Source: Arctopsyche grandis
Lineage: Eukaryota > Arthropoda > Insecta > Trichoptera > Hydropsychidae
Assembly (NCBI RefSeq): GCF_051622035.1
Contig: NC_135367.1
Span: 10,452,501 to 10,516,500, forward strand
Length of the DNA: 64,000 nt
Direction: 5' to 3'
The translations under genes and the position numbers were made by a program. Positions 12,064 to 37,570 of the stretch are shown one piece after another; the stretch's first letter is position 1, and each line of letters opens with the position of its first letter. Under the pieces are notes generated by a model. The model had not been told where the DNA came from, did not search any database, and saw only the letters and a program-made list of their open reading frames with translations.

Positions 12064-15000
12064 ATCCAACAAACTGAAGTCGTTCTGGTTCAACGTGTCA
12101 GATGAGCCTGTGCCGACTTTGGACTTCCTCTCGGCAGCTTTACTATCAGCTGAATACGAAAGAGCTTTGGCCCGTGCTCTCGCCATGCCCGATTGTAGAG
12201 TCGTTCCTTTTTTCGGGGCCTTCCTTAGAGAACTTAGGTAAATATTATAATATACTATAGAACGAATGTTTGTAATAAATCGGACGTATTCAAAGCACTG
12301 TAAAATTTTCAATGCAAACAAATCGTTCGTTTCAGAGAAATACTCGCTTCATCGCCTGTTATATTAACCAATCAAATGAGATCGCCCAGGGATAGCAATA
12401 GAGATCCAAGAACAACACACAGAGAATCGATTAGTAAAGAAACATCCAGCAAAAGGTTTTTATTTTCATACATAATTTGCAGATTTTTCGTTTGGATTGA
12501 ATAATTTATTTAATCTTGCTTGAATAATGCTCGTTAAATGTGTGTAAAGGTCCGTAATTACTTGTTAAATATGGGGAACAATGTAAACGTTCATTTTATA
12601 AAATAAATGTGCATTAAAAAAAGCAATTTAAAAAAAAATTTTGTACATAAAAAGTTTCTGTATATTACAAAAAAAATGTGTGCATTTCTAAATGACGGAT
12701 TCAGATGGCATTAGAAACTTTATTTTGATCATCGAAAAAAATCAGACGTAAAAATCGAAAGCGAAGTAAAAAGAGGATAGTAATTAAAAAGCGGATGTTT
12801 GCTACTTAAATGGATATTACAATGACCAAAATACGAACCGACAACGACCAACGCTTCTCTCTACTGGATTCCTTTTTTTTTACTCTTCGGCTTGTGACCT
12901 TCGACACCTATGACCTTGGCTTCGACTCTACGACCTGGCATCATCATTCATGTTCATACGTAATACGTATACAAAAGTAAACACTTTTGACAGTTGACTG
13001 CAACGTTACCACTTTTTGTATCTATACTAATGCCAAAATCTATTTTTTCGAATGATCGTTTCATATTTTTTAATAGTCACTTTATAATGCCAAATTTTAT
13101 ATTATATTTCATTCGATGCACAATACAAGATTGTTTAATTTAATGCAAAATTTTAATGCACTAACATTTTTTTTAAGATACAAAGTTTTTAGTACAAAGC
13201 AACACAGAATTGCACGGAAAAGACTAGTTCTGTTCATACTATACAGCACCGCTCGTTTTCGGCATGTTCATGCTTGTTTTGAACGAGTACATGGCAAAAT
13301 TATTTTACATTTACATTACAGAGTGGAGCAATATTTTCACAATATGAAGTTTCTGAAAATATTTATATGCACATAGCAACACTTTCGTTTCTACGGGTGC
13401 TCTCGCCACTATGTCGTTAAGTCGATTCTGTACTGTACTGTTGTATATATATTATGGATATGTTGTGTCGGTTGCTACTGTTTTAGTTACATTTTAGTTC
13501 ACATTACGGAACATATGAATGTGTCCATATAGATTGTACTATAGTATTTTTCGTACCGCTGTTAACGTGCAATTGCCGAATTGAACTGTGCTGGTATAAA
13601 CGAACCTTAATACGTACATATGTATGTTTTCTTAAATGCTTTTTTTTTAGTAAATAAATACATAATTAAAACTCGAGTGCTTCCTTCCCTATTATTTCCC
13701 GGAATTAATTATTTTTAATGGTGCTTTTATTTGCAGGGGATCGATGAGTAAAAGCGGTGGTAGACGAGACTCCTTCAAAAGATCAAAAAGTCCTCATAGT
13801 AGTTCACGGAATAGTCCAAGGAGTCAATCCATAAAAAAAGATGGCTCTGATTCTTACAGCGAAGTGCCAGAAGATTTATCCAAATCGTCAGAGAAACAGT
13901 CAAGCTTTAGTGGAAGAGGTTCTAAAGCGAATTCGCTAAAGAAAGACATACGATCTTACATAGACGGAAAGAAGGAATGCGCCTCGCCACCTTTAGAGAC
14001 CCACAGTTGTTCCAGCACACCTAAAAGCAGTTCGATCAAAAGTGATCCGAGAATGCACTTCGCTGAAAGTCAAGAGTCTGTAATCATATCTACTTCTAAA
14101 GCTGACAGCGCCTTTGCTGAAAGCCATTCCAGCTCGACGATCTCGCGGGGACTATCTCGCACTACCCAAGAGACCAGATTGGATGAGACTAGAAACACCA
14201 GCCACACTAGTGGAGTTTCTTCCAAAGACGCAACTAGTAGAGAATCCAGAGTGCCTTCGCTTGAAAGTCAAGGCTCCTTCATCAGCTCATCCCCATCTAA
14301 GAGTGACGGGGCGCGAAAGGACACTGTTGATAGTCAAACTGGGTCTTTTGCATCAAAAGACTCGGCTAGGTGGGATTCCAGACTATCTTCCCTAGAGAGT
14401 CAAGGATCTTTTACTGCCTCGTCCTTATCTTCCAAAACCGACGAAGCTTCAGCTGAGGTTGGATCATCGGCCGAAAGTCAACCTGGACATAGTGAAAAGT
14501 CTACAATGGACAGTCCAAGTTCTTGCTGCACGGTTAAGAAAGATGCTTCCACTTCAGCGGCTGATAGCCAAGCCCACTCCAGCTCATCCAGGAGTGATTC
14601 GCTAAAAAGAAGATTGCACGGGATTTCATCAGATAATCCACAAGGAAGTAGCCATATCGCTGCTGGCAGTTTGGCTACATCTCCTCAGCCTTGTAGGCAA
14701 GTGGTAAGAGGTTTGTGTAGCCTTTCTATTGACTGTTAATCTATTTATTCAATATCCCAAGCAAAGGTAACACACTTCCCTCGAACTCATAACATTTTTA
14801 ATTTTGACTCAATGCAATATTTCCATTGTCATTTTCAGTACATTGCCTCTTTTGAAGGATGTGAATCTTCAGGCACTTGGAGAACAGTAGGTCCAGAAGG
14901 GATGCTCAATTTAGAGAAAGTGTATAGAACTCAAGCGGTCATGGATCACATAGCTTCGTTTCATCAACATCACCACACCATTTCCAGACAGCACAGCACA

Positions 15001-18000
15001 GCAGGATTCGGAGACTATTTAAGGTACCATTTGAAACATCTTATTTTGTAAACTTAATATTTAGACTAGTTTTAAGAGAATTCTGTATTTATTTTAGGAA
15101 TACTTACGCCAGTATAACCCAACCAGTTTTTGCAATAAGTCGCGATCACGACGAAGCCAAGGAACATAGAGGAATGAAAGACTTCAACAATCAAATCTCA
15201 TACGCAATAGAAGATAATGAAAATTTGTACGAAGTGGAAGCAGCTCCTCAATATAATCCAGTACAACCATTATCGCAAGATCACAGTATTTCTATGTTTC
15301 CCATCAAGAAAAAAGATCATCACATTCTTCAAGTGAGTAATATTTTTTTTGGTACATGTGGTAACTATTTTTTTTTGTATTTGAATCTTTAAATTTCGTA
15401 GATAATGCATCATGGTTGTTGTGGAGTATTGTGTGAAAGTGACTATGCTGGTAGCAGCAGACACACATTAGCTTATCTGAAGATGGAAAGATCCTGTTCT
15501 CTTTTGGCATGGTGTAAGCCTCCTTGGAGACAACCCAAAAATACTACTGGATCAGGTAAAACCTCTATTATTTCTAGCTGTAATTAAATAATAATTCAAA
15601 CTCTTTAATATTCCTTATTAATGCGTAAAGGTGATTCATTAGACTCCAGTACTAACGAAGTGAGCTTGACTTGCAATCCAGAAGATTTAGTTCCCTTGAA
15701 ATATACCTCTAATTTAGTGTACGAAGCTGATACTGGAATAGTAGCAGAAGAAGGGTAACTTAAACCTCGATTTACTTTTTATTCCAACAATTATTTATAA
15801 TATTATTTATTAATTGAAATACTTATAGATATTTAGATTTGAATACAGTAAAAGATATAATGGTCGGTGGACGGCATTTAGAAGTAAAAGAAGTCCAAGA
15901 ATTAGTATCAGCTGCGAAACGATACGGTCTAGAAATACAAGGAAATGATGATCTCAATATTATTACAATAGTTCATGGCAATAATCTTAGCGATAATAGA
16001 ATAGTATATTTGATGATGCCCACCCAATCTTTTAGGTTTGGTTTTGTTTCTATATTCCATGTTATAATGTTATGTATATACTTATAATACTTACAATAGT
16101 TGGATTTTCTAAATTTAATTTTGATTTTAGAGTTTGGTGGATAGGACTACATATGGCTGTCAAAGGACTCATGCTACAAGCGAGGTTGACAGATAGAAGT
16201 TTAGCTTGGTTAAGAAATAGATACGTTAAACTGTTTTTTGAAGATGGTTGTTGTTGTGAACCATTAGCTGCCGATGCAATCAGAGTGAGTTGAATTTCTT
16301 AATCTACAGATGGTTATATTTGTTTTAAATAATAAACTCTTTATATTTTTAGGCTTTTGGAGGACGTGACTGGTCTTTAGCTGGACTGGTTGGGCCCGGG
16401 CCCAACGCTCCAAGAGGAGGATCTGATGGTGAAAACTCAATGGCAGCTTCTCTGAAAAATGCTTCATACATAAAATTCAAGGTAAATTAAACTATTAGTG
16501 TTTATATGTTTTTTGAGGGAAGTATTCTATGCTGAATTTTGTTTTAGAAGAATAAATCCACATCTGAATTGAAAACTTGTTCGCCTAGAATGTCATCAGC
16601 TGGACACTCTTCTGGAGCTAGAAGTGAAGATGAATCTCATCACGGTTCACCTGCCAAACATAGGTGCTTCTTTGATTTAACTTTGTATATATTTTTTATT
16701 GATGCATATGTTTATTGATAAATTAAAACTTCTAGAAGTTCCTATTCTGCCAGTAGTGTACTTTTGTATAAACAACCCCAAAATCGTCATAGTTCCTTAA
16801 CGACAGCAGCTATGTCTTCTCCTTCTAATGCAAGAAGTAAATTTGAAGCTGGAAGGTAAGATCCTTCGCTTTGCGTACACGATATATATGCAGGTATTTC
16901 TAATCGATGCTTTTAAATCATTTCAGTTTGAAACGACTAGAATCTAGTGAAAGATTGTGGCAAAGTATGAAGCACCTCAGATCTTGCTCCATCGGTTACG
17001 ATACTCAATTAGACTTTAAGGACTTCGTTAACCTTTTCAAATCCTTTAGGTAAGTTTCATATGTAATTAATATAATAATATATTGTTCCTAAACATTGTA
17101 TTTTCATAAACTACTTGTTAAATTATAGTATTTTGATGAGAAAGGACTTACGCGACTTGTTCGATCAATTAGCTATGGCTCGATATGGAAAGCAGTCATT
17201 GTGTCCTGAAAAAAGCCATAGCAGTCCTGAATTGTTTAGAATGAGGGGTTTACTAAAAGGAGGTCAGTAATAACTTATGATATTAGCTTTTTTACTTCAA
17301 TTTCATACTAATTTTGAGAATTATGCTAAATTATCATCAGGACTTTTGACGAGGAATGGATCATTGGATTTGAATTCAAACGCAGACAAATCTGAACAAA
17401 AGAAAGTATTCGATCACATAGCAGCCACTAGCATTCTCGAAAACTGTGTAGGACTGTTGAAACGTGGAGAAGACCAGGTAGTTACAATGGCAACTTTGAG
17501 AAAATTCTGTGAAACGAGACAAATGGAGCATAAAACTGATGAAGATCTCAAAATGATTGTACAGGTAGAGTTAAAAACATACATGTGTAATAAAAATCAT
17601 TGCTGATATTTTCAAATAATAAAAATAATCAATTACAGAGACATGAACCAGATCCAGCTCTCAGACTAGAAAACTGTCTCTCGTTTGAAGGATTCGCTCG
17701 TTTCATAATGGATAAAGACAATTATGCATTTATACCGGAAAAATCAAGGCTCAACAGTGATCCTAGGTAAGAATCTAAATATTTCCTATACTTTGTGGCT
17801 TGATATAACATTTGATACAACTCTGATTTTAATTAGGTCAATCATGACAAATCTACACAAAGGACACCAAAACATACTTAGCTCGTCATCTAATCAATAT
17901 GTGAAAAATCAAGGCATGGATGGTCCATTGAGTCAATACTACATTGCTTCAAGTCACAATACTTATCTAACAGGTCACCAGTTGAAAGGAGAATCTTCAG

Positions 18001-21000
18001 TTGAACTTTATAGTCAAGTTAGTATGAGTTGAAAACCATCGATGTCTTAAGTACACATAAGTATTGCTTCTAATTATCTAATCTGCATAGGTTTTGTTAA
18101 CTGGTTGTCGATGCGTTGAGCTGGATTGTTGGGATGGTGAAGATGGAAGTCCCGTAATCTACCATGGCCATACTCTGACTACTAAAATACCGTTTAGACG
18201 TGTTGTCGAAGCTATTGCTAGAACTGCTTTCGTAACTTCTCCTTATCCACTACTTCTTAGTATAGAAAACCATTGCAGTTTGCCGCAGCAAATCGTTATG
18301 GCTAATACATTCCAAGTATTGAGCATTCCTTATTTTTATTCATTACTCTTTAAATGCATTTTTTTATGCAATAAATTAAAATTTCAGGCTGTTTTTGGAG
18401 AAAAATTGGTGACCCAGTTTCTTTTCGACACCGATTTTTTGGAAGAACCTCGTCTTCCCACGCCCGAGCAGCTTAAATATCGTGTCCTTATTAAAAATAA
18501 GAAGTTGGGACCTAACGAAGGTAGCCCTCATCACAGTCAGACTTCTGGTCCTCAAACTTCATCTTCGAGGTATTATATTATAAAACCATCAGTTTCGGTA
18601 CTGTTGCAAATAATAATTGATGAATATTTTTAGATCTCAACCTAATGGTGCTAGAGCATCAGTTGATACAGCAGCTTCACGTACCAGCACCACATTGTCA
18701 GCACAAAGTGGTTGTTCTTCGGTTGTCGAGTATTTTTCAGATGAAGACTACGACGATGATGACGATGAGCTCGATGGTATGTTAAAATAATTAAAGTTTA
18801 TATTGATACAACTTTTCGTTTTGATTCGATTGCTTTAAACTTTAGAAAAAGAACTCCACAATATTTTGAAAAGCATGGAAGATAGAACTGAAAAATATCC
18901 AGAGTTTCGTAAGACAGAATCTGATGGGGATGCTTCAGGGTCGAAACAAGCAGTTACAACGACATTAGCACAGAGGAAAAGAAGTAACCAAATTGCTAGG
19001 GAATTGAGTGATATCGTCACTTATGTTCAGGTAAATGCGTTTAAAGTATGTATAAAGTATACTTTATGTACGTGCGAGTTTAACAATGAGGTGTTTATAG
19101 GCTATAAAATTTCGAGGACTCAATCCTAGTTTAGGCCCTTTACCTTCAGGGCATTCTTTGATCAAACCCAATCTTCACCATCCAGCCACTAGTTTCGACT
19201 CTGCTGAAAGCACAGACAGCAACACACTTCAGGTATTTTGATCGGATTTTTATAAAACACAAAATGATAGTAAATTATAAGGTGCTCAACGTATTTATGC
19301 ATTGTTTAGATTGGTCGCAGATGTGGTGTGCGTAACATAAGACATCCGTGCTACCAATGCTGCACACTTGGAGAACCACTAGCTAAAAAAGTGTGTCGCA
19401 AACATCCTCTGGCAGTTTTAGCTCACACCCAAATGCAACTCATGCGCACTTATCCAGCTGGGTATTTATTCATATAATATATGTAGCTCTTACTCAAATT
19501 CAATCTGGAGCTCGTACTCTAGGACATCGATTGATTTTTGTTTTCAGTTTGAGAATAGATTCTTCAAATCTCGATCCAGTTTTGTTTTGGTCTTGCGGTA
19601 TCCAAATGGCCGCTTTGAACTATCAAACTGAGGATGCAGCGATGGCTTTGAACGCTGCCATGTTCGAGCAGAACGGTTGTCTGGGATACGTGAGGAAGCC
19701 CAGCATTATGTGGGATCCTAACCATATAATGTACAGAAGGTACTGATTTTTTTGAGCTTGATTGTTTTGAATTGTTTATATGGTGTTTAAAATATTCCTG
19801 GTTTTATAGATTCAATCCGTTGGAGAAGGAATTTGAAGGAATTCATAGTTGGAGGCTAACTCTTAGTATTGTTTCTGGTCAGTATGTAGCTGGACACGAT
19901 GGCTTCGGTGGTGGTCCAGTTCACGATCCACTTGTAGAGATAGAAGTTAGTGGAGTGCCTGTGGATTGTTGCAAGAGGAAAACTATAATCATTAAAAAGA
20001 ATTCTCTGAATCCCATATGGAATGAGACATTTAGTTTCAGAGTAAGCAATAATGTTAATTATCTATATGCATTTTTTAATATAACATTTGGTACATTTTC
20101 ATCCTTCTTTTTAGATCCAATTCTTAGATTTGGCATTTTTGAGATTTTCAGTGTATGATACTGATACCAACATGATCTTATCACAACGTGTGATTCCTTT
20201 AAAATGTTTACGACCTGGTTATAGACATGTTCGTTTGAGGTACTTATATTAATTTCAACTAACTGTTTGTATGATATGGTTCAAATAATCATTCAACAAT
20301 ATATAATACAGATCAGCAACAAACAAACCATTGAGCATGGCTTCACTTTTCATCTTCTCTCGTGCAGAACAAGAAGGTCTGGGCTCGAATAGGAGACCAG
20401 CTCATTTCTTAACAGTTCATGGAGTTACGCATACAGAGCCGTATACGATATTGAAAGTCACTGAAGATACGACAGTAGATGAGGTATATATTTAAATTAT
20501 TTTTATTTTAATTACAATTGGCTATTTTGATATTAAATTTAAAACGAACTTTTAGGTGGTTGCCAGGTGTATGAGACTATCGGGGATGGTGTCAACTTGC
20601 GGCCACGCAGTTCTTGTGGATGCTGGTGCTTCTGGAGGGCCTCGAGTTTTGGCCCCTAATGAAAAACCTTTAAGTGCCAATAAACTCATGTTGAAAAGAC
20701 TGGGTGATGATCCAACTAGTAGAGCTTGGTTGACGACTGTAAGCAAAGGTCCTGCTAAGGATGAGCAAGAGCAGAATCATTTGACAGGTGAAGAGCAGAT
20801 GGAAGACCACGGTAGTGGATTTTTGGTTTGCGTTCATGACGTGTCTCCAGATATTCCTTATGCAATTTTGAAAGTACCAGCACAAGCTACAGCCGGTCAG
20901 GTTCTGAAGCAAGCTTTGTCGAAAGGAAGAAGCTCTGCTGATCCAGATAAGTAAGCGATTTGCTTAAAAACTATATTTAAATTAATACGAGTATTAATAC

Positions 21001-21894
21001 TAAAATAATAGGCTTTAATTTATTTTATAGGTTTGTATTAGAAGAGCATTTAGATTGGGGTACGAGAGGTGCTGGAACTCGAAGGACTATAGCAGATGAT
21101 GAAGAGCTCTATACTGTTCAAGTAAGATACAGATTTTTTTCGAGTATGCTGATTGATGAAATGAGTACTTGAGAAATTGCTTGATGTTATTGATTTATTT
21201 TAAGGCCAACTGGAAAACAATTGGAAGATTTGTCATAAAAGAAAAATCTAATTGTACACAGGGAGTTGCTAAGCATCGCTTAGCTATTGCTAAGATTGGG
21301 AGGGGTTTCAGTCTTACAAAAGGTGTTCTTTCCAGTCAGTATAATTTTCACATTCCAACTAAATATATTTATTTTCATTTCTTTTTTGAAATAAATGCCA
21401 AAAATTATACTTCAGGTGGTACTACATCGAATTCAAACAAAAAACCCATCCATGCAGCTCACAGTGATCCTACTTCATCGGCCAAGTATGAAACTTTTTT
21501 CTCTTGTCTTTTTTGTTGCAATAATTCATTATCATTTTTGATACAATATTTATTTTCAGGAGACGTGTGTCTGCAATGGGGAGCATGTTTGGAAAATTTG
21601 GAGGAAAAAGAGAAGTAATTCCCACTTTTGAAATTGAAGTAATACATTTGTGTACAATAACTTTTACTTATGATTAAAATATAACTTTAGGTTCATTCAG
21701 AAGGCGAATACTTCAGTGGAGACGAAGATTATATGACTCCATCGTTTCTATCAGAACCGGAGCGTAGCCGTAGACCTTCAGGAATTGGTGGTGCTGGACC
21801 CTCTGGACCAAGAGCTGCTGAAGATCTTCTTGTAGCGGCTGTCACACGTTTAAGGAGAGCGTCCATTAGAAAATTACGACAGTGGAAATCATGA
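12064..21894 (+). CDS. PLCE1: Phospholipase C epsilon, 5' partial
   Basis: Cleaves PIP2 to diacylglycerol and IP3 under control of Ras-type GTPases. Exons: 12064-12237, 12336-12455, 13737-14703, 14839-15023, 15098-15332, 15402-15555, 15631-15754, 15829-16035, 16131-16284, 16353-16481, 16548-16663, 16736-16855, 16927-17049, 17129-17262, 17341-17564, 17639-17766, 17837-18017, 18091-18315, 18388-18569, 18634-18776, 18846-19030, 19101-19232, 19310-19461, 19548-19739, 19810-20041, 20115-20239, 20312-20483, 20556-20950, 21031-21121, 21205-21322, 21416-21485, 21560-21614, 21691-21894 (about 2048 residues). Order: end of a RasGEF domain ([12 protein letters not shown]), a Ser-rich exon with two LESQGSF repeats, PH/EF-hand-like parts, catalytic X, acidic linker, Y, C2 and two Ras-association domains. 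In X the catalytic motifs [14 protein letters not shown] and YHGHT are present, so it should be active. The start lies left of the window. Two RA domains after C2 separate it from other PLC classes. Confidence 0.95.
13227..13607. mobile_element. Diverged Tourist-like MITE in PLCE1 intron
   Basis: The left end GTTCTGTTCATACTATACAG and right end GGTATAAACGAACCT are inverted relatives of the 60978-61196 element, and GTGTCCATATAGATTGTACT also recurs there. It sits in the 1.3 kb intron before the Ser-rich exon. Old and non-coding. Confidence 0.5.
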
Positions 21895-23812
21895 GTTTGG
21901 CATTTCCTGGCCGAGAGTAATTTATTTTTTTTTAATTCTAAAACGTATCACTTTATTATTATATTTTTTTTTTATTTTTAATTTTGAAATTATATATTTA
22001 GGTTACCAGGGCTTGAATTCCGGTCTTTGGACTTGGGAGGCCCGCTTCAGAGATGGTACTCAACGGTCAGATAGGGACGATGGTAATGAATCTAAAAAGA
22101 TTCCATCCACCGAAATGATAGACTCCTTGTGGGAGTTTTTGAGGAGTGGTACAAATCCAAAAGAAGAAAATGAAACGGCTGCTGAAGTTGTGAACGTCGA
22201 CGAATCGAAAACAACTGATAGATATGATGAAATTCTAATAGATCTCGAAGATTGCAGTGAAAATGTCAATAATGAAAATGTCGGCGAGTATAGCTTAAAT
22301 TCCAATAAAAGTGCTAGTAAATTCGCCAAGGACTTTCTTAAAATTCTTCACGAAACTGTAAATTTAAAATATGTGAAGACTGAGGATAACAGCAATTTGA
22401 TCAACACAGAAAATAGCGATGTTGTTCCAGATATTGAACAAAATCAAGAACAAAATGAAGATTTGAAACATGAAAATAGTAAAATATTTGAAAATAAATT
22501 GTTAAACATGTTTGACTTTCTACTTGATATAGCTAAAGCTCCAAAATCAGACGTACTATCGAGGGTGCGTAGAAAAAGTAGTTGTTTTTGGTCCGAAAAA
22601 AGTCCTTCAGAAATGGACAGCAGAGAGGAAACGATGGATATGTCAATTAAAGAGGAAGAAAGTGAACTACCCATGACAAGTGACGATAATATGGAAACGT
22701 ACATTGAATTTTTATCAAATCCAGAATGTAGTCCTAAGATTGAACTGCAAAACAAGATGGAAGCGATGAAAAGTCCAAACGTAAAAATTCAAAGGAAATC
22801 CTTCAGAAAGAAATCCGCTGATGGTGAAGATAAAATGTCACTTTTAGAATACATGTTCAGTAGTGGAGGAGAAAGAAAGAAATCTGATGGAAGCACCAGT
22901 AAAATGTCTAAAAACAAATGCCTCAGTTTGGAAGAGAGCATAGCCAGCTCGACAAGTAAAACTAAAGATCAACCAACCGATAGCGACAACGGGGGATCGA
23001 TCGTAGATTTAGTTCTCAGTAGTGAAAATAGAGTTTGTTCAATTTTGAAGAACTTCTCACAAGACTCGTCCGAGATTGGTTTTATAGATGAGAGTCCGGA
23101 ATTGCTCAAGAGCAAGGAAAACCTCGTCGATTTCATTCTAAAATGCATGGATAACTTCGACAGCGCCAACGAAAGCATGTCGAGAAAAAACAGCAGGCGC
23201 AAAGAAGACAGCGACTCCAAGAACAATATGCTAGTGGAATCAAGAATAGCCATGGCCAAACCAGAAGACTTCGATTTGAGCCCTGAAAAGGAAACTGCTA
23301 GAGGTATAGAATGTGCAAGGCTGACGCGAATATTCAAAGATATGGGTACCAGTTGCGACATACCAGACTCTGCTGGCACCAGTTCGCTTAATTCGAGACT
23401 ATCGCCTGGCGAAGATGGCGAGTCTGGATCTTGGATCAGACCAGATCAACTTGCCGAGTTGCGTAAGTGTGCCGAAGTAATATTCAAAGAAGTCAACAGA
23501 GATTTGATCAAAATTGCAGGAGCAAGCGTGGATCTTTGCGAAAAGAGCACCACACACGAGGCAAAAGTCGATGAACGTTCGATTAAACCATGTGATGATT
23601 CCGAGCAAGCCAAATCAGTACCCAAGATTGAAAAGGTGTCCGTAGCTTTGGAGACCAGCTTTGACTACGACCCATCCCAATACGACTTTGACTCGCCTAA
23701 CGAGAATGTGCACACAGTTGTTCAAGTAGAAAACGTTCACAATTACTTCTACAAAGTAGAGTTGGAGATGATTAAAGAAAGTTTTGAAGTAGACGATGGA
23801 GACTCTCCGTAG
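21895..23812 (+). CDS. In-frame C-terminal extension after the PLCE1 stop codon
   Basis: After the TGA at 21892-21894 the PLCE1 frame continues for 22 bases to a possible donor (GAGA|GTAATT, exon end 21916). An 85-bp T-rich intron ends TTTAG at 22001, and the next exon (22002-23812) is in exactly the right phase. It is open for about 600 codons to the TAG at 23810-23812. There is no ATG-led start of its own near the front, and only 107 bp separate the TGA from this exon. The protein is acidic, Ser/Lys-rich and probably disordered, with short hydrophobic segments (SLWEFL, SLLEYMF, LVDFIL). No domain is recognised. It could be made by TGA readthrough, by alternative splicing round the TGA, or be a separate gene; an assembly error at the TGA is also possible. 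Confidence 0.7.
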
Positions 23813-25108
23813 AATCGATATCTTCCATTAATTAGCTCAGCGCACATACATATGTATGCCTGTGTTGTACCCAATGAATGTTACAACACAAGTATTAAGG
23901 TGCGTACGTTGCACTCGCATAATCTAAATCGAAATAGATATTTATATTATAATTATAATTTTTAAATACATAGATATCTGAAATATTGCTATTTATATAG
24001 ATTTCAAGATTTATTTTATATATTTGCTCAAATTTTCTTAAATATACATACATACATACATACATATAAAAACCATACGATTGATTGAACATTAAGTGTC
24101 TTTCAAGTGTTCAAATTAAATACATACATACATATGCTTTGAATTTGCATGCTAATTAAAAGAAATTGTATTCTATAATATAAAAATCAAGATTTTAAAC
24201 AATTTTCAAGAACTTCCTCATAATTATTATATTATATGTATATCCAAAATCATATATTTATAAAAAAATCTCAAATATAACATAATCTGTACAAAATCTA
24301 GTTATTTCATATCAAAAGTTATCAAACGTACATATATATTTCATAGTTGATAAAAATTGTATAGAACAATTTCATTATTCAATTATTTTAATTGAAAATA
24401 AGTTATTATATAATTATTTAAATTATAACACAGTCAAACTTCTTTCTAACAAAAATCATTCTACTCTACATACATATGTATATTTACATACAGTTTATTT
24501 TTATCTTAACACATACACATGTACATATGTAGTTACAGCCGGGTTTGACTGTATGCCAATGTTTATGCCAAATCCTCATTCATTGCATGTACCCATCCAT
24601 CGACCATTACAATAATTACGTTGACTGAAACACACATAGTATTACATACATACATATGTTATCACGCTCATTGTATCATTATTATTATCGTTATTTGTAC
24701 TGACTGTGCAATTTTACTAATGAATGAGGATTTGCCGTCGCGTTTTCCTTCCCTATGAAATTATATTATATTATTCACTGTGATTATTAAGTAGATAAAC
24801 AAAAAAAAACATACCTACATATATACATACATATTTATAAAACAACTACGAAATAGTTAAGTTAATTAATTTTCGATTTTCAAAGTGATCAACATTGTCT
24901 ATAAAATATGTATTATAAATTTTATGTATAGTGGGACCAAGGATGTTGACGGGACATGAAAGAAAAATCAGAAACATGTTTTATATAACTAGTATATTTA
25001 AACAAAATTTATTTTATTGTGTTGATAAATAAATATTTATTATTATTCAAAAACTCTTTTATTGCTACACAAATACATATAACATACTTAAATACATCGA
25101 AATTGTAT
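23813..25108. other. 3' region between convergent PLCE1 and IFT88
   Basis: The two genes point at each other here. The stretch is very AT-rich, with ACATACATACATACATACAT runs at about 24046 and many TACATATGTA palindromes. It probably holds both 3' untranslated regions. No further coding exon or transposon is recognisable. Confidence 0.6.
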
Positions 25109-28100
25109 TCAATCTGGTGGTAGCGGCAATTCATCTTCTTCTTCGTTAACTTTCTTTGCTGAACTTGTGCTCTAAATGTAAAAACATATTCACTATTATA
25201 ATATATGTATGTACCTATATGATATAACATTTCACAATAAAACTGAAAACTCTACTTACCATCCTTTTCAAAGAATGATTAGAAGCCGCAGACTGTGGTG
25301 GAGGTGAAGCCTAATTTACAATTAACAAATAAACAAATATACAACAAAAATACATGAACGAAGTACATACATATATCTAAATATAATCATACAAAAATTA
25401 AATCTCATGGAATAAATATTAATAAGTTCTTACATATGCAGCGTTAGAGCTGGAAAAACCTTGCCATTGATTTGACACACGATTCAATGGTTGACTCAAT
25501 TTGTTAACTAAAAATATATATTATATTAAAAAGTAACATATACAAATTTATATACATATACATATGTATATATATATATCATAAATCATATGGAACATAC
25601 CACTAGCAGCAGTTCCCGGAGGAGAGAAACTACCCCTCGAAGATCCACCACTACCGATAGTCATAGGTGACCCTGCATTACAATGCATTATTTAAAAATA
25701 TCATCTAAATATAAATAAAAAAAACCAAACACAATAGCTAAACAACAACCTGAACTATGATTTGAAACATTGTGCTGTCGCTGAACTCTCTGTAACTCAG
25801 CTGCCCATTTTTCCGTTTCTCGTAAGCCTTGATCTCCACATAATTTCACTATCAACTTCAAACCTACAATTTTTCAATACCATCAGACACTTCTCTATCG
25901 ATAGAAACAAACCAATATACACGTCAATTACATTCTAAATTGTCGGGAAACCTCTCTCTCAGCTTCTTATAAGAGGTGAGTGCTTCTTGATACCGACCAG
26001 CCGCTCTCAGACAAGCGCCTTCTTCCAATCCCCATTCCACCTGTGACACAAATCGACAAATAAAATAACTCAAATAGATCAAATAAATTCATTGAAGGAT
26101 ATTTACGTGTCCAGGAGAGAGCATAGCAGCTCTTCTATAGTACTGAATAGCTCCGCTCGGATCACCAGACGAGCGAGCATGCGAACCCAACCAACCTAAT
26201 ATTTCTGGACTTCCAGGAAACACAGCATCAGCCTGTAAAAATGTTAATTCGATCAATACCTTTGGATACAAATACCATTTTTTCAAAATTGGGAATAGAG
26301 TGACGCACGTCCAAATAGCACTGTTGAGCCATTGTGATATCTCCGGACTCCTCGTACATGCGAGCCATTTCAATCAGGATGCTAGGATCGCTCGGCATTT
26401 CTGCTAATACTTGATGGTACCTTTAATATTTATATATATAGACAATTATTACCCCTTTCAAACATATCCCAATGGGAATACAAATGATCCAAATAACAAA
26501 AAATTTGAGCCTACTTTCTAGATGTTTAGAAACATAACTTGAATTATGATGAAAATCCTTATACAAACCGAAAAGAATAATGAAAAATAGAAACCAATGA
26601 GCAGCAGAATCCATCTGTCCAGCAGCTCGTGCACACGCAGCTAGACGTACCCGCGCACATGCATCAGATGGAACAGCACGCAAAGCACGCTCGTAGCACG
26701 AAGCAGCTTCAGCACGCTCACCCAACTTTTCACAAGCTAAACCTACAATAAAAAAGAATAAGCACACCGCTATCCCTGATTTAAAAAACCAACAAGATAT
26801 TAAATATATATGGATACCAAGATTATAAACAGGATCCCGAGCCGACGGAGCAATAGCAGTAGCTTCCCGCAGCAAAGATCGTGCTCCACGCCAACGTTGA
26901 CCGCGACCTTCACACAAAGCACGGGTTACCAAAGCAGCAGCATCAGGCCCACCAGCTCCTCCAGAACACGCCAACTCTGACAACTCTCCGGCCGAAGTCA
27001 TATCACCCTCCTATAAATTAAATTAACTTCAAAATTGAACCCCAAAGCTTGAAACATTTGTTAGAACCATAGATATAGAATACCATAGATACGCCCTTAC
27101 GCTCTAAGCCGATCACCCTGTTGGACCATGCACAAACAAAGAAGTGCATGGTCCAACTCTCAGTAGCTAGTTAACTTCCAAGTAGGAAGGTTGATTGACA
27201 TTTTTCGAAAATGCCGACGTGTTCAGTGAAATTGTGTTACAATTACTCAAGAAAACATAAAAAGGCGGATGGCATCACATATCATATGTAAGAATTAATA
27301 TATAATGTCTTCAATTATAGTAGTATTTTAACATATAATGAAATATCGGCGCGATGTATGTAGTTTTGTATGCAGTGATAGAACAGCCGTCGATAACCTC
27401 TGCCACAGATGTCTCTAAATGCGGTCTCCGTGACGGGCCGGAATGTGAAATTACCGAAAATGCAAATATCGGAAGGCAAAGATCGAAATCTCACTTAATT
27501 TGTACTCACGTACATACTCACTTAATTTGCGCGAACAGGATACAACAGGAACAATAGGAATAGGCTTTTCCTCCCGTATTCTGCGCGCGCACATTTATAC
27601 GGGAGGAAAAGCCTGTTCCTCTTGTTCCTGTTGTATCCTGCTCGCGCAAATTAAGTGAGTATGTACCGTTTACCATGCACCATTTTTTTTTTGATCTTTC
27701 GACTTAAGATCTTTCGATTTTCGATCTTTGCCTTCCGATATTTGCGTTTTCGGTAATTTCACATTCCGGCCCGTGAGGTAGACCCCTCTAAATGCATTAC
27801 GTTTAAATACATTACGTTAAATACATATACATTAAGTTTAAAACTACAAACAATGAACTAAATATTAAAGTGTCAGCTTTAAAAATGATCGTTGTGGAAG
27901 TTACTAGTATTTAAATATTGTAATAGTTAATGATGATTTTGTGGCGGCTCGCTTATATGACATGGTCGAGTTTGGTTGCCTTCCTGCGAGTGGGGACCAA
28001 CCCGGCTGGGTTCGGAGAGCCGCTACTCACTCTGTCTTCAGCTGTCATATAATAAACACGTGCATTAACATGCCAGTCGTCTCATTCGTTCATCCTCCAT

Positions 28101-33110: not shown

Positions 33111-33268
33111 ACGATAACTCGAGTGACAGATATTCTGTATTCGCGATTTTCATGACAACAATATTTTCCTGTGTAATAGGATTATTCGTCACATTGCGGT
33201 GGTCACAAAGACAATTTTTGCCATGAAAATCGCGAATACACAATATTTGGCACTCAAGTTCTCGTTAG
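33111..33268. repeat. Inverted repeat at the front of a Tigger-like element
   Basis: Arms 33111-33154 and 33222-33267 share GTATTCGCGATTTTCATG and the GAGTGNCA word in inverted order, with a 67-bp spacer. One arm recurs at 49974-50025. Probably a MITE or terminal repeat of the neighbouring element. Confidence 0.65.
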
Positions 33269-33920
33269 TATGATGGACTTTTATCAAATCTATAATGCAA
33301 ATGAAACAAGCCTGTACTGGAAGTGTTTACTGACAAAAACGCTGGTTTCAATGAGAGAAAAGTCCACTCCTGGACATAAATCGTCCAAAGAAAGGATTAT
33401 TGTCATGTATTGCGGAAACGCATCAGGAATTCATGAAATTAAACTTTCGATGATTGAGAAAGATAAGAAAACTCGATCTTTTAATGGAACTGAAATGAAA
33501 ATTCTTCCCGTCGATTATTATAGTCAGAAAGGGGCATGGGTGGACAGGGAGGTTTTTGAAGATTGGTTCAAAAATAAATGGTTTCCAGAGGTGCAAGATT
33601 TTAAAAAAAAATAGCGGATTGCTATAGAAAGCAGTATTGTTAATAGATAATTCTCCTTCTCATCCAAGCGAAAGCATATTGAAAACAAACGATGGACTTA
33701 TGGTTACAAAACTTTTGCACCCTAATGTGACATCATTAATGAAACGTCTTTATCGTCAGTCTTCTGAAAACTCTTGTTGAGCAAGATGACAACCTGATCA
33801 ATTTCTGGAAAAAAATGACGATATTGGATGCTATACACGGAATAACACAATCTTGGTCAAAAGTAAAGCCAGTAACACTTGTTCGATCATGGGGAAATAT
33901 TTTTAGGGGATGGAACGAAT

Positions 33921-35454: not shown

Positions 35455-37570
35455 ATGTCATATACTATTGAACGTCTTATTATTGAAATTGAATCACGTC
35501 CAGCAATATGGGATAGTAGGACCAAGGAATATTCTAATAGAATAATAAAACGAAATGCTTGGGAGGAATTATGTGCAGCACTGAAACCCAACTTTGAAGA
35601 GATGACAAGTGCAGAAAAATGTCTCACAGGTATGTTGATTGATGATTTAACATTGCTTGAATCTATATTTTTTATCATCACATGAGTTAAAACCATTACT
35701 GTTTACTGTTAAATTATTTTATGTGTAATGCAAGAAATAAATGTTATTTTATATTTAATCTTATGCATATTTTGATTGCCGTGGAAGTGCTCCTGCATCA
35801 CTCACAAAGTAGTCAGTAAAATTGTCGCCAATATCATATGCCGTTTTTTTTCTTGTGCTTGGTAATAAGTTACCTTCAGTATCTTGAGTGTCATTTGTTG
35901 TCGTTGAAATAGAATTATTCTCTCTTTGACGAACAAAATTATGTAGAACACAACAAGATTTTACAATATCTTCGCAGAAATCAATTGACACATTTAGTGG
36001 TCGGTGGAGGATCCGCCATGTATTATCCAGAATTCCAAATGCACATTCGATATGGCGCCGGGCTCTAGAAAGTCTGTAATTGTAAATTCTTTGTTTTGGT
36101 GACAAATTGTTGCCACTATATGGTCTTTACACATTTTCTTCCAACCCAAAAGCCTCATCGCCAATAAAAGTGAACGGTAATGGTTCGCCTGAACTATGTA
36201 AGGGTCTGGCTTTAGGAATATTTAATGACTTTTCATTAATCATTTTATATAGTGTACTCTTTTTGTATATTTGCGAATCTGCACTCTTTCGTAAAAACCC
36301 ACGTCAATGAAAATAAAATTAAAATCTGAATCACAAACTGCTAATAGCACAAGAGAAAAATAATGCTTATAATTATAGTAAAGTGAGCCACTGTGCGCCG
36401 GCTGAACTACTTCTATATGTTTGCCATCGATAGCACCTAGAAGATTAGGAAAGTTTGCGGCATTGTTGAAGTCTTTCGCAATTTTCAACCATTCTTCTTC
36501 TGATGATGGCGGCATGCATATAAATTTCAAAGAATTCAATATTGTCAAACAAGTTTCCCGCACAATGCTTGATTATTGTAGAAATCCCACATTTGTATGA
36601 ATAATGCAGCTCGGTAAATGTGCATCCCGATGCTAGAAACCGGCAACAATTTATTTTGTTATTTTTAATTTGTACATTTATTTAATTACCTGTTTCAGGC
36701 ACTACTATTCAGAAAAAATGGAAAAGCATTAGAGATGCATTTTCACGAGAACTGAAGAAGAATAATTCAAAAAGCGGGTCTGGAACCAAAATCTCAAAGC
36801 CTTACGCCTATTTCAACAATCTGTTATTTTTGAAGCCGCTGTATGAAACAAAACCAAAAGAACAAGATAATACAGACGGCAACGAAATTTTAAACATTGA
36901 GGATGATATTAACGATGACCATATTAATGCTTCTGATATTTATGTTCAGACAACTAAGCCTAGCACGTCAGGAAAAAGAAAATACGAAGAACATTTGTTT
37001 AAAATCTTAGCAGATAGTGTTTTAAATAAAAGAAGAAATATGGAAACAGGTGACAATGATCCTGACAAACAATTTTTGCTATCGTTACTGCCCGATTTAA
37101 AAAATATGGATCAGAGCACAAAATTTGATGTTAAATTTGATATAATGAGTGTTATGAAGAGATATAAAGATTTCAACAAGCCATATTCAGAATACGGATA
37201 TCGGACAGGCGCTACTACTCAGTATTCATCTTCGCCATCAAACGCAAGCCCCCCATCCGTTTCGTCTTCTCCATCGCCATCTACTTCCAACATTCATACA
37301 AATTTGACCGAATACCAATCCCCGTATTCAAATTCGCCATCAAACGCAAGCCCCCCACCCGTTTCGTCTACTCCATCGCCATCCACTTCCAACATTGATA
37401 AAAATGTTAGAGAATACCAATCCCCGTATTCAAATTCGCCATCAAACGCAAGCCCCCCATCCGTTTCGTCTACTCCACCGCCATCTACTTCCAACATTCA
37501 TACAAATTTTAGAGAACACCAATCCCCGGAGTGTGGTGAAGAAATTTATCGAGATTTGTTTAAAAACTGA
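35455..37570 (+). CDS. MADF-BESS protein of the Harbinger element
   Basis: Exons 35455-35629 and 36699-37570 join in frame to 348 residues. The first exon and the start of the second form a MADF DNA-binding domain (IERLIIEIESRPAIWD, WEELCAAL, IQKKWKSIRDAFSRELKK); a BESS-like helix follows (DKQFLLSLLPDLKNM, about residue 200). The tail holds three 34-residue Ser/Pro repeats. Harbinger partner proteins bind the element ends and carry the transposase to the nucleus. No stop or frameshift is seen, unlike the transposase. Confidence 0.8.
37224..37540 (+). repeat. Three 102-bp coding repeats
   Basis: Units starting TCGCCATCAAACGCAAGCCC at 37232, 37334 and 37436 keep the frame of the MADF protein (34 residues each: SPSNASPP...STSNI...). 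They are very similar, so the expansion is recent. Confidence 0.9.

Follow-up and report, generated by a model that had tools for sequence, protein, structure and literature searches.

A single TGA ends the PLC-epsilon (PLCE1) gene at this locus, and beyond it, across one short intron, the frame stays open for a long stretch, which raises the question of whether this tail reaches the enzyme and by what route. A sequence-only reading of the locus had proposed a short form of the enzyme and a long form, made by readthrough or by splicing, with an acidic, Ser-rich tail that could control where the enzyme is located. We analysed the gene within a window of 64,000 nucleotides (G000:C13:10452501-10516500; assembly total, 475.7 Mb). 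Stop-codon readthrough is a known phenomenon in insects, and the PLC-epsilon tail would most likely be a new long case of it, perhaps with a splice-built stimulator. We give this reading about an even chance, because splicing that bypasses the stop and a nonsense allele or assembly error remain as other explanations.

The plus-strand gene with its end near 21900 was identified as PLC-epsilon from its PI-PLC-X and RA2 matches. The PI-PLC-X domain was located at 18091-18633 (Pfam E = 7.2e-38), and the RA2 domain aligned with the PLC-epsilon structures 2byf, 2c5l, 9ax5 and 9b13 (PDB, RA2 6.5e-10). An X domain together with a C-terminal RA domain marks a protein as PLC-epsilon, and both are held in common with animal PLC-epsilon (PLCE1). 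The chain of 9ax5 ends 21 residues past the aligned part, whereas in the protein here more exons follow up to the TGA, beyond which comes the 602-codon tail. Exons were modelled with a self-trained gene finder, which was trained on the window and on 200 kb from its neighbourhood, with 21500-24000 left out, and cannot cross stops. Its PLC-epsilon parse from 12064 on contained 32 exons, with the membership of the first exons and the 5' end provisional. Towards the N terminus of the PLCE1 model, a Ser-rich exon of 967 bp (13737-14703) had no Pfam match. Open frames around PLCE1 in the window matched MADF/BESS, NOSIP, TPR, DDE transposase and ligand-gated channel, among which BESS points to an insect. 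A DDE_1 transposase fragment was found at 33180-33614, and the open frame at 36686-37570, of MADF/BESS type, has SPSNASPPSVSS-like repeats in tandem.

The arrangement described by the sequence-only reading was reproduced at each step from the stop to the tail (Table 1). The frame that enters the last short-form exon at 21691 closed at the TGA, ran on past it for seven codons to the donor AGA/GTAATT, with the GT at 21917-21918, and was taken up in matching phase at 22002, where the junction codon AGT and 602 further codons are open to 23812. The codons in frame after the single TGA, put at about 610, were counted as 610, and the spacing between the TGA and 22002 again came to 107 bp. The exon at 21691-21916 had a single match in the whole genome. 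Genomic frame 2 was open across the intron as well (stop to stop, 21854-23812), and in RNA that keeps the intron the PLCE1 frame closed 28 codons past the TGA. The bases following the UGA are GUUUGG, with no C directly after the stop and no CUA. The 22 nt between the TGA and the donor have 55% G+C; at least as much was seen in 16% of 1054 windows from PLCE1 exons, in 6% of 2841 intron windows and in 2.5% of windows in 23813-25000.

Table 1 Coordinates of the features of the PLC-epsilon locus, counted from the first base of the window
Feature	Position	Strand	Basis
Modelled PLC-epsilon exons preceding the last one of the short form	12064..21614	+	Self-trained gene finder parse, Pfam, PDB
Exon closing the RA2 domain, ends in phase 1, donor AAG/GTGTTC	21205..21322	+	Gene finder, PDB, donor score 5.8 bits
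Exon with the short-form C-terminus and the first post-stop codons	21691..21916	+	Frame, gene finder, one genome match
Short-form stop TGA, next base G (UGA-G)	21892..21894	+	Sequence
Seven codons past the TGA (VWHFLAE) plus the first base of AGT	21895..21916	+	Translation, gene finder
85-nt intron, AGA/GTAATT ... ATTTAG/GTT, 9% G+C	21917..22001	+	Sequence, splice-site scores
Tail exon, junction codon plus 602 codons, TAG at 23810-23812	22002..23812	+	Open frame, coding score
Predicted hairpin, 5' arm, part 1	21907..21916	+	Predicted fold, spliced mRNA
Predicted hairpin, 5' arm, part 2, joined by the splice	22002..22008	+	Predicted fold, spliced mRNA
Predicted hairpin, 3' arm	22054..22070	+	Predicted fold, spliced mRNA
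Tail motif copy LWEFL	22127..22141	+	Motif search
Tail motif copy MFDFL	22508..22522	+	Motif search
Tail motif copy YIEFL	22700..22714	+	Motif search
Tail motif copy LLEYM	22841..22855	+	Motif search
Tail motif copy IVDLV	23000..23014	+	Motif search
Tail motif copy LVDFI	23123..23137	+	Motif search

Whether the tail is protein-coding was judged by simulation, coding score and motif content. Sequences of 64 kb were simulated in two sets of 50, and their longest chance open frames were 206 codons (tail composition) and 202 codons (window composition), compared with 602 in the tail; the chance of phase agreement alone is 1 in 3. Six stop-free frames of at least 350 codons occurred in 264 kb of this genome, among which the tail frame was second longest. 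Coding log-odds in frame were +8.2 nats for 22002-22115 and +132 nats for 22116-23809, and under the same gene-finder model the other two forward frames and the three antisense frames were negative. When the tail was divided into blocks of about 150 nt, 11 of the 12 were positive in frame, with -0.6 for the block at 22452-22601. The 54-nt intron that the parse placed within the tail (22479-22532) is taken as an artefact of this weak block. For the 22 nt after the TGA the log-odds were only +0.7, with +2.0 in another frame there (single-species model). Together with the motif described below, the simulations and the scores of the tail exon indicate that the in-frame region past the stop has protein-coding character.

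Database comparisons of the tail gave two sub-cut-off Pfam matches (E 0.033 and 0.18) and no match in PDB. Two matches up to E = 1 were obtained in the Rfam scan of 19000-25200, both far below the gathering score and neither useful. No relatives of the tail were found in the prokaryote and viral contig collections, nor any of the exon at 20556-20954 in viral contigs. In its own genome, the one match of the tail outside the gene itself was a broken, roughly 200-bp copy. This duplicated piece (window 23438-23633) lies about 209 kb upstream at G000:C13:10266980-10267815, with 92-93% identity. Some 640 bp inserted within it divide it in two, its surroundings are repeat-rich, and one half contains a stop. 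It differs at 13 positions, 3 of them silent, and is too short for measuring selection.

In composition the tail is 20.6% D+E, 13.3% K+R and 13.3% S, with a net of -44. A motif of the form hydrophobic-hydrophobic-[DE]-[FYL]-hydrophobic recurs in it, with six matches against 0.25 expected, a number reached in 0 of 5000 shuffles. This short motif alone stands out, because among longer internal repeats the best 20-residue self-match (36) equalled the best of 10 shuffles. The five residues directly past the TGA, VWHFL (21895-21909), resemble the motif, with H in place of D/E. The six tail copies were made into a 5-residue profile, on which VWHFL scored 7.7 and the copies themselves, when left out, 2.7-9.4. 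Scores of 7.7 or more were rare elsewhere, with a single case in 2034 PLCE1 windows and frequencies of 0.09% in windows of the shuffled tail and 0.18% in 21073 flanking windows free of stops. An 8-residue profile gave 0 of 2031 PLCE1 windows, 0.18% of shuffled-tail and 0.38% of flanking windows, and with wider profiles (one repeat out of register, TGA penalised) 1.2-3.9% of PLCE1 windows matched the score of the segment. Counting four possible places in the segment, the chance of such a likeness is roughly 0.4-0.7%. We treat VWHFL as a lead rather than as proof, because the likeness was spotted by eye ahead of scoring. If it is real, the tail protein would start at the TGA, ahead of the splice, which bypass splicing would not explain.

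The splice sites around the stop were compared with the donors and acceptors of 89 introns inferred from 264 kb of the same genome, in which the donor median was 6.5 bits. The acceptor at 22002 outscored 53% of the 89 inferred acceptors, and 85 nt is a usual intron size (63 of 89 introns measured 60-100 nt). Donor 21917 was weak (4.1 bits, 10th percentile); donors without both -1G and +5G numbered 6 of 89, and the preceding PLCE1 intron opens with a near-identical donor, GAA/GTAATT. A second acceptor, 22010, lies 8 nt from 22002, and joining donor 21917 to it would shift the frame.

Splicing from 21916 to 22002 also changed the predicted structure of the RNA. In the spliced mRNA a hairpin was predicted to begin 12 nt past the TGA (+16, with the stop as +1 to +3). 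Fourteen of the 15 examined pairs had probabilities of 0.945-0.999 and one of 0.507, and the structure includes a 10-nt internal loop. Its energy of -32.2 kcal/mol was the lowest in the 7950-nt spliced model, of which 7870 windows of 80 nt were folded; the best energy at the same site in unspliced RNA was -5.1 kcal/mol, and folding of the unspliced sequence gave nothing notable (z -0.84). With acceptor 22010 instead of 22002 the local structure reached -26.5 kcal/mol. The controls for this hairpin, whose window was noticed after the fact as the best of 12 first tried, were mixed overall. When synonymous codons were resampled, 4 of 2000 sequences were equally stable (1 of 97 when G+C was matched); when they were permuted in place, 107 of 2000 were. 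After G+C correction the hairpin ranked 16th of 7870 windows, those 16 lying at four places including its own. Dinucleotide shuffles gave z -2.3 (11 of 500 as stable), and 8 of 263 windows were equally extreme. None of 21 predicted gene ends was as stable (best -27.2), where these ends were folded as unspliced genomic sequence, were mostly AT-rich and included the tail's own stop. In one predicted fold, GGAAAT (21884-21889) and ATTTCC (21902-21907) could pair with the TGA in the loop; this pairing was missing from the fold predicted with more upstream sequence.

Readthrough is not the only way to join the tail to the enzyme. Alternative splicing could attach the tail exon to PLCE1 by a route that leaves out the TGA, an explanation that we regard as unlikely and yet as the likeliest of the alternatives. 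Its routes would be 21322 to 22002 (a three-exon skip of 351 nt in frame), 21791 or 21848 (phase 1) to 22002, and 21614 to 22010 (phase 0), and each of these joins is in frame. Because such in-frame joins exist in the sequence, we do not claim membership in the readthrough class; the tail looks, and would work, like readthrough. Donor 21323 scored 5.8 bits (30th percentile), donor 21791 scored slightly above 21917, and the gene finder, barred from crossing the stop, joined donor 21848 to 22002. In the criteria they give for such cases, Jungreis et al. 2016 generally regard a second ORF with an exon break as a splice variant if the part before the break scores non-coding, and thus lean towards bypass splicing (PMC5100048); here the pre-break part scored +0.7 in a single-species model, which decides neither way. 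Against this explanation, donors 21848 and 21791 score just 2.4 and 4.5 bits versus the median of 6.5 and would need introns of 154 and 211 nt, and VWHFL past the TGA and the junction-spanning hairpin would be left as coincidences. These two features favour readthrough over bypass splicing on present sequence evidence, neither of them amounting to proof. Less probable again is a private nonsense allele, or an error of the assembly, at the TGA; the population would then have a sense codon there and PLC-epsilon would be one long protein. This would account equally well for the phase, the coding signal and VWHFL, and one assembly is the basis of the analysis; it predicts neither a stop-proximal hairpin nor TGA specifically. 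Substitution errors are also rare in modern long-read assemblies, which counts against an error. As to nonsense alleles, the estimate used by Jungreis et al. 2016 is 17 recent nonsense changes in D. melanogaster versus 333 listed readthrough candidates (PMC5100048).

The sequence-only reading had further argued that a separate gene is hard to fit and that the exon has no ATG-led start at its front, and both arguments held. Past the TGA the frame meets its first ATG at 22115, which lies 113 nt inside the exon; it has G at -3 (ACCGAAATGA) and opens 565 codons, from which the tail could be made by reinitiation on a two-cistron mRNA or by a separate gene under a promoter of its own. This ATG is preceded by three others that are out of frame (22053, 22080 and 22086), two of which have both a purine at -3 and a G at +4, and the sequence from 22002 to 22115 is already coding-like in frame ahead of the ATG. 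A good acceptor opens the exon, and no AATAAA or ATTAAA was found between the TGA and the exon (21895-22001). Because of the late in-frame ATG behind three others, the acceptor, the intron features and the missing poly(A) signal, a separate or reinitiated gene is very unlikely. Other kinds of recoding, namely selenocysteine insertion, A-to-I editing of UGA to UGG or a frameshift into genomic frame 2 (open from 21854), are the least probable of all. Frame 2 runs to 23812 without splicing, which would suit a frameshift, but the intron is strongly non-coding in that frame (-18.7 nats). No SECIS was among the two Rfam matches (up to E = 1) in 19000-25200, and the protein is not assigned to the selenoproteins. 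ADAR disfavours a G 5' of the edited A, which counts against editing of the UGA.

Stop-codon readthrough is retained as the best explanation, and from the anatomy, the coding signal, the repeated motif and the predicted hairpin observed here it would work as follows. PLC-epsilon mRNA would usually be spliced from 21916 to 22002, and most ribosomes would end at the TGA, giving a short enzyme with a basic C-terminus. Some ribosomes would insert an amino acid at the UGA via a near-cognate tRNA, continue through the codons beyond it and add an acidic, Ser-rich, probably disordered tail with seven short hydrophobic motifs (VWHFL included), most likely serving as a multivalent docking tail. The hairpin, with its 5' arm assembled by the splice, would be the probable stimulator. 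Of the two forms proposed by the sequence-only reading, a short enzyme and a long one with an acidic, Ser-rich tail remain the best reading; neither route to the long form is proven, as the in-frame skip from 21322 to 22002, a route that the sequence-only reading did not name, would also work. It is also conceivable, if doubtful, from the predicted folds that splicing acts as a switch: removal of the 85-nt intron would build the hairpin and frame the tail, and intron retention or use of 22010 would change the frame and remove or weaken the structure.

Published work bears on readthrough in both directions. UGA is described as the leakiest stop, and stem-loops shortly past the stop raise readthrough in flies depending on their stability and position (PMC13170385). 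The readthrough classes that have been named include UGA-G followed by a 3' pseudoknot, and two mammalian candidates with 3' structures are reported to show little readthrough (PMC4132726). RNA structures were predicted for 9-10% of mosquito and fly readthrough candidates versus <1% of other transcripts (PMC5100048), and a structure of this kind is not a requirement for readthrough. Fly extensions are given as 4 to over 1000 residues long, and towards the long end of this range many have a disordered character (PMC4528330). The G after the TGA, in place of the readthrough-enriched C, and the lack of CUA count against readthrough as far as the published enrichment goes, and so do weak donor 21917 and the gene finder's preference for 21848. 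Among papers outside subscription journals, searched in these wordings, a single one, a review, contained both stop codon readthrough and PLCE1, and none combined translational readthrough with phospholipase C, insect and C-terminal extension.

Among known systems, kelch and headcase of Drosophila resemble PLC-epsilon here in that one stop precedes a long region open in the same frame. Their readthrough was demonstrated in vivo (PMC13170385), whereas the PLC-epsilon tail is known from sequence alone, and only the latter is noted with an intron 22 nt past the stop. Similar to PLC-epsilon, dfr/vvl has a stem-loop just past the stop, and dfr readthrough depends on stem stability and position (PMC13170385). 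The dfr stem spans +9 to +59 and is conserved and mutation-tested (PMC13170385), whereas that of PLC-epsilon is predicted, starts from +16 and is split over two exons. Shifting the dfr stem 3-9 nt away lowered readthrough (PMC13170385), and the PLC-epsilon stem starts farther from the stop. With its internal loop, the PLC-epsilon hairpin also fails the structure filter described in PMC13170385, which allows no bulge over 2 nt.

PLC-epsilon is reported as absent from D. melanogaster (PMC5829494) and as enriched in honeybee mushroom bodies (PMC4924639). If the readthrough reading is true, a mushroom-body-enriched phospholipase would exist in two forms, with a 610-residue tail set at the ribosome, and a long readthrough extension would be found in a gene missing from the main readthrough model, D. 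melanogaster. The locus would also offer a direct test case for a splice-assembled, stop-proximal hairpin gating readthrough. If the splicing switch were true as well, splice choice would set the share of PLC-epsilon that carries the tail, and splicing would be coupled to recoding in one element.
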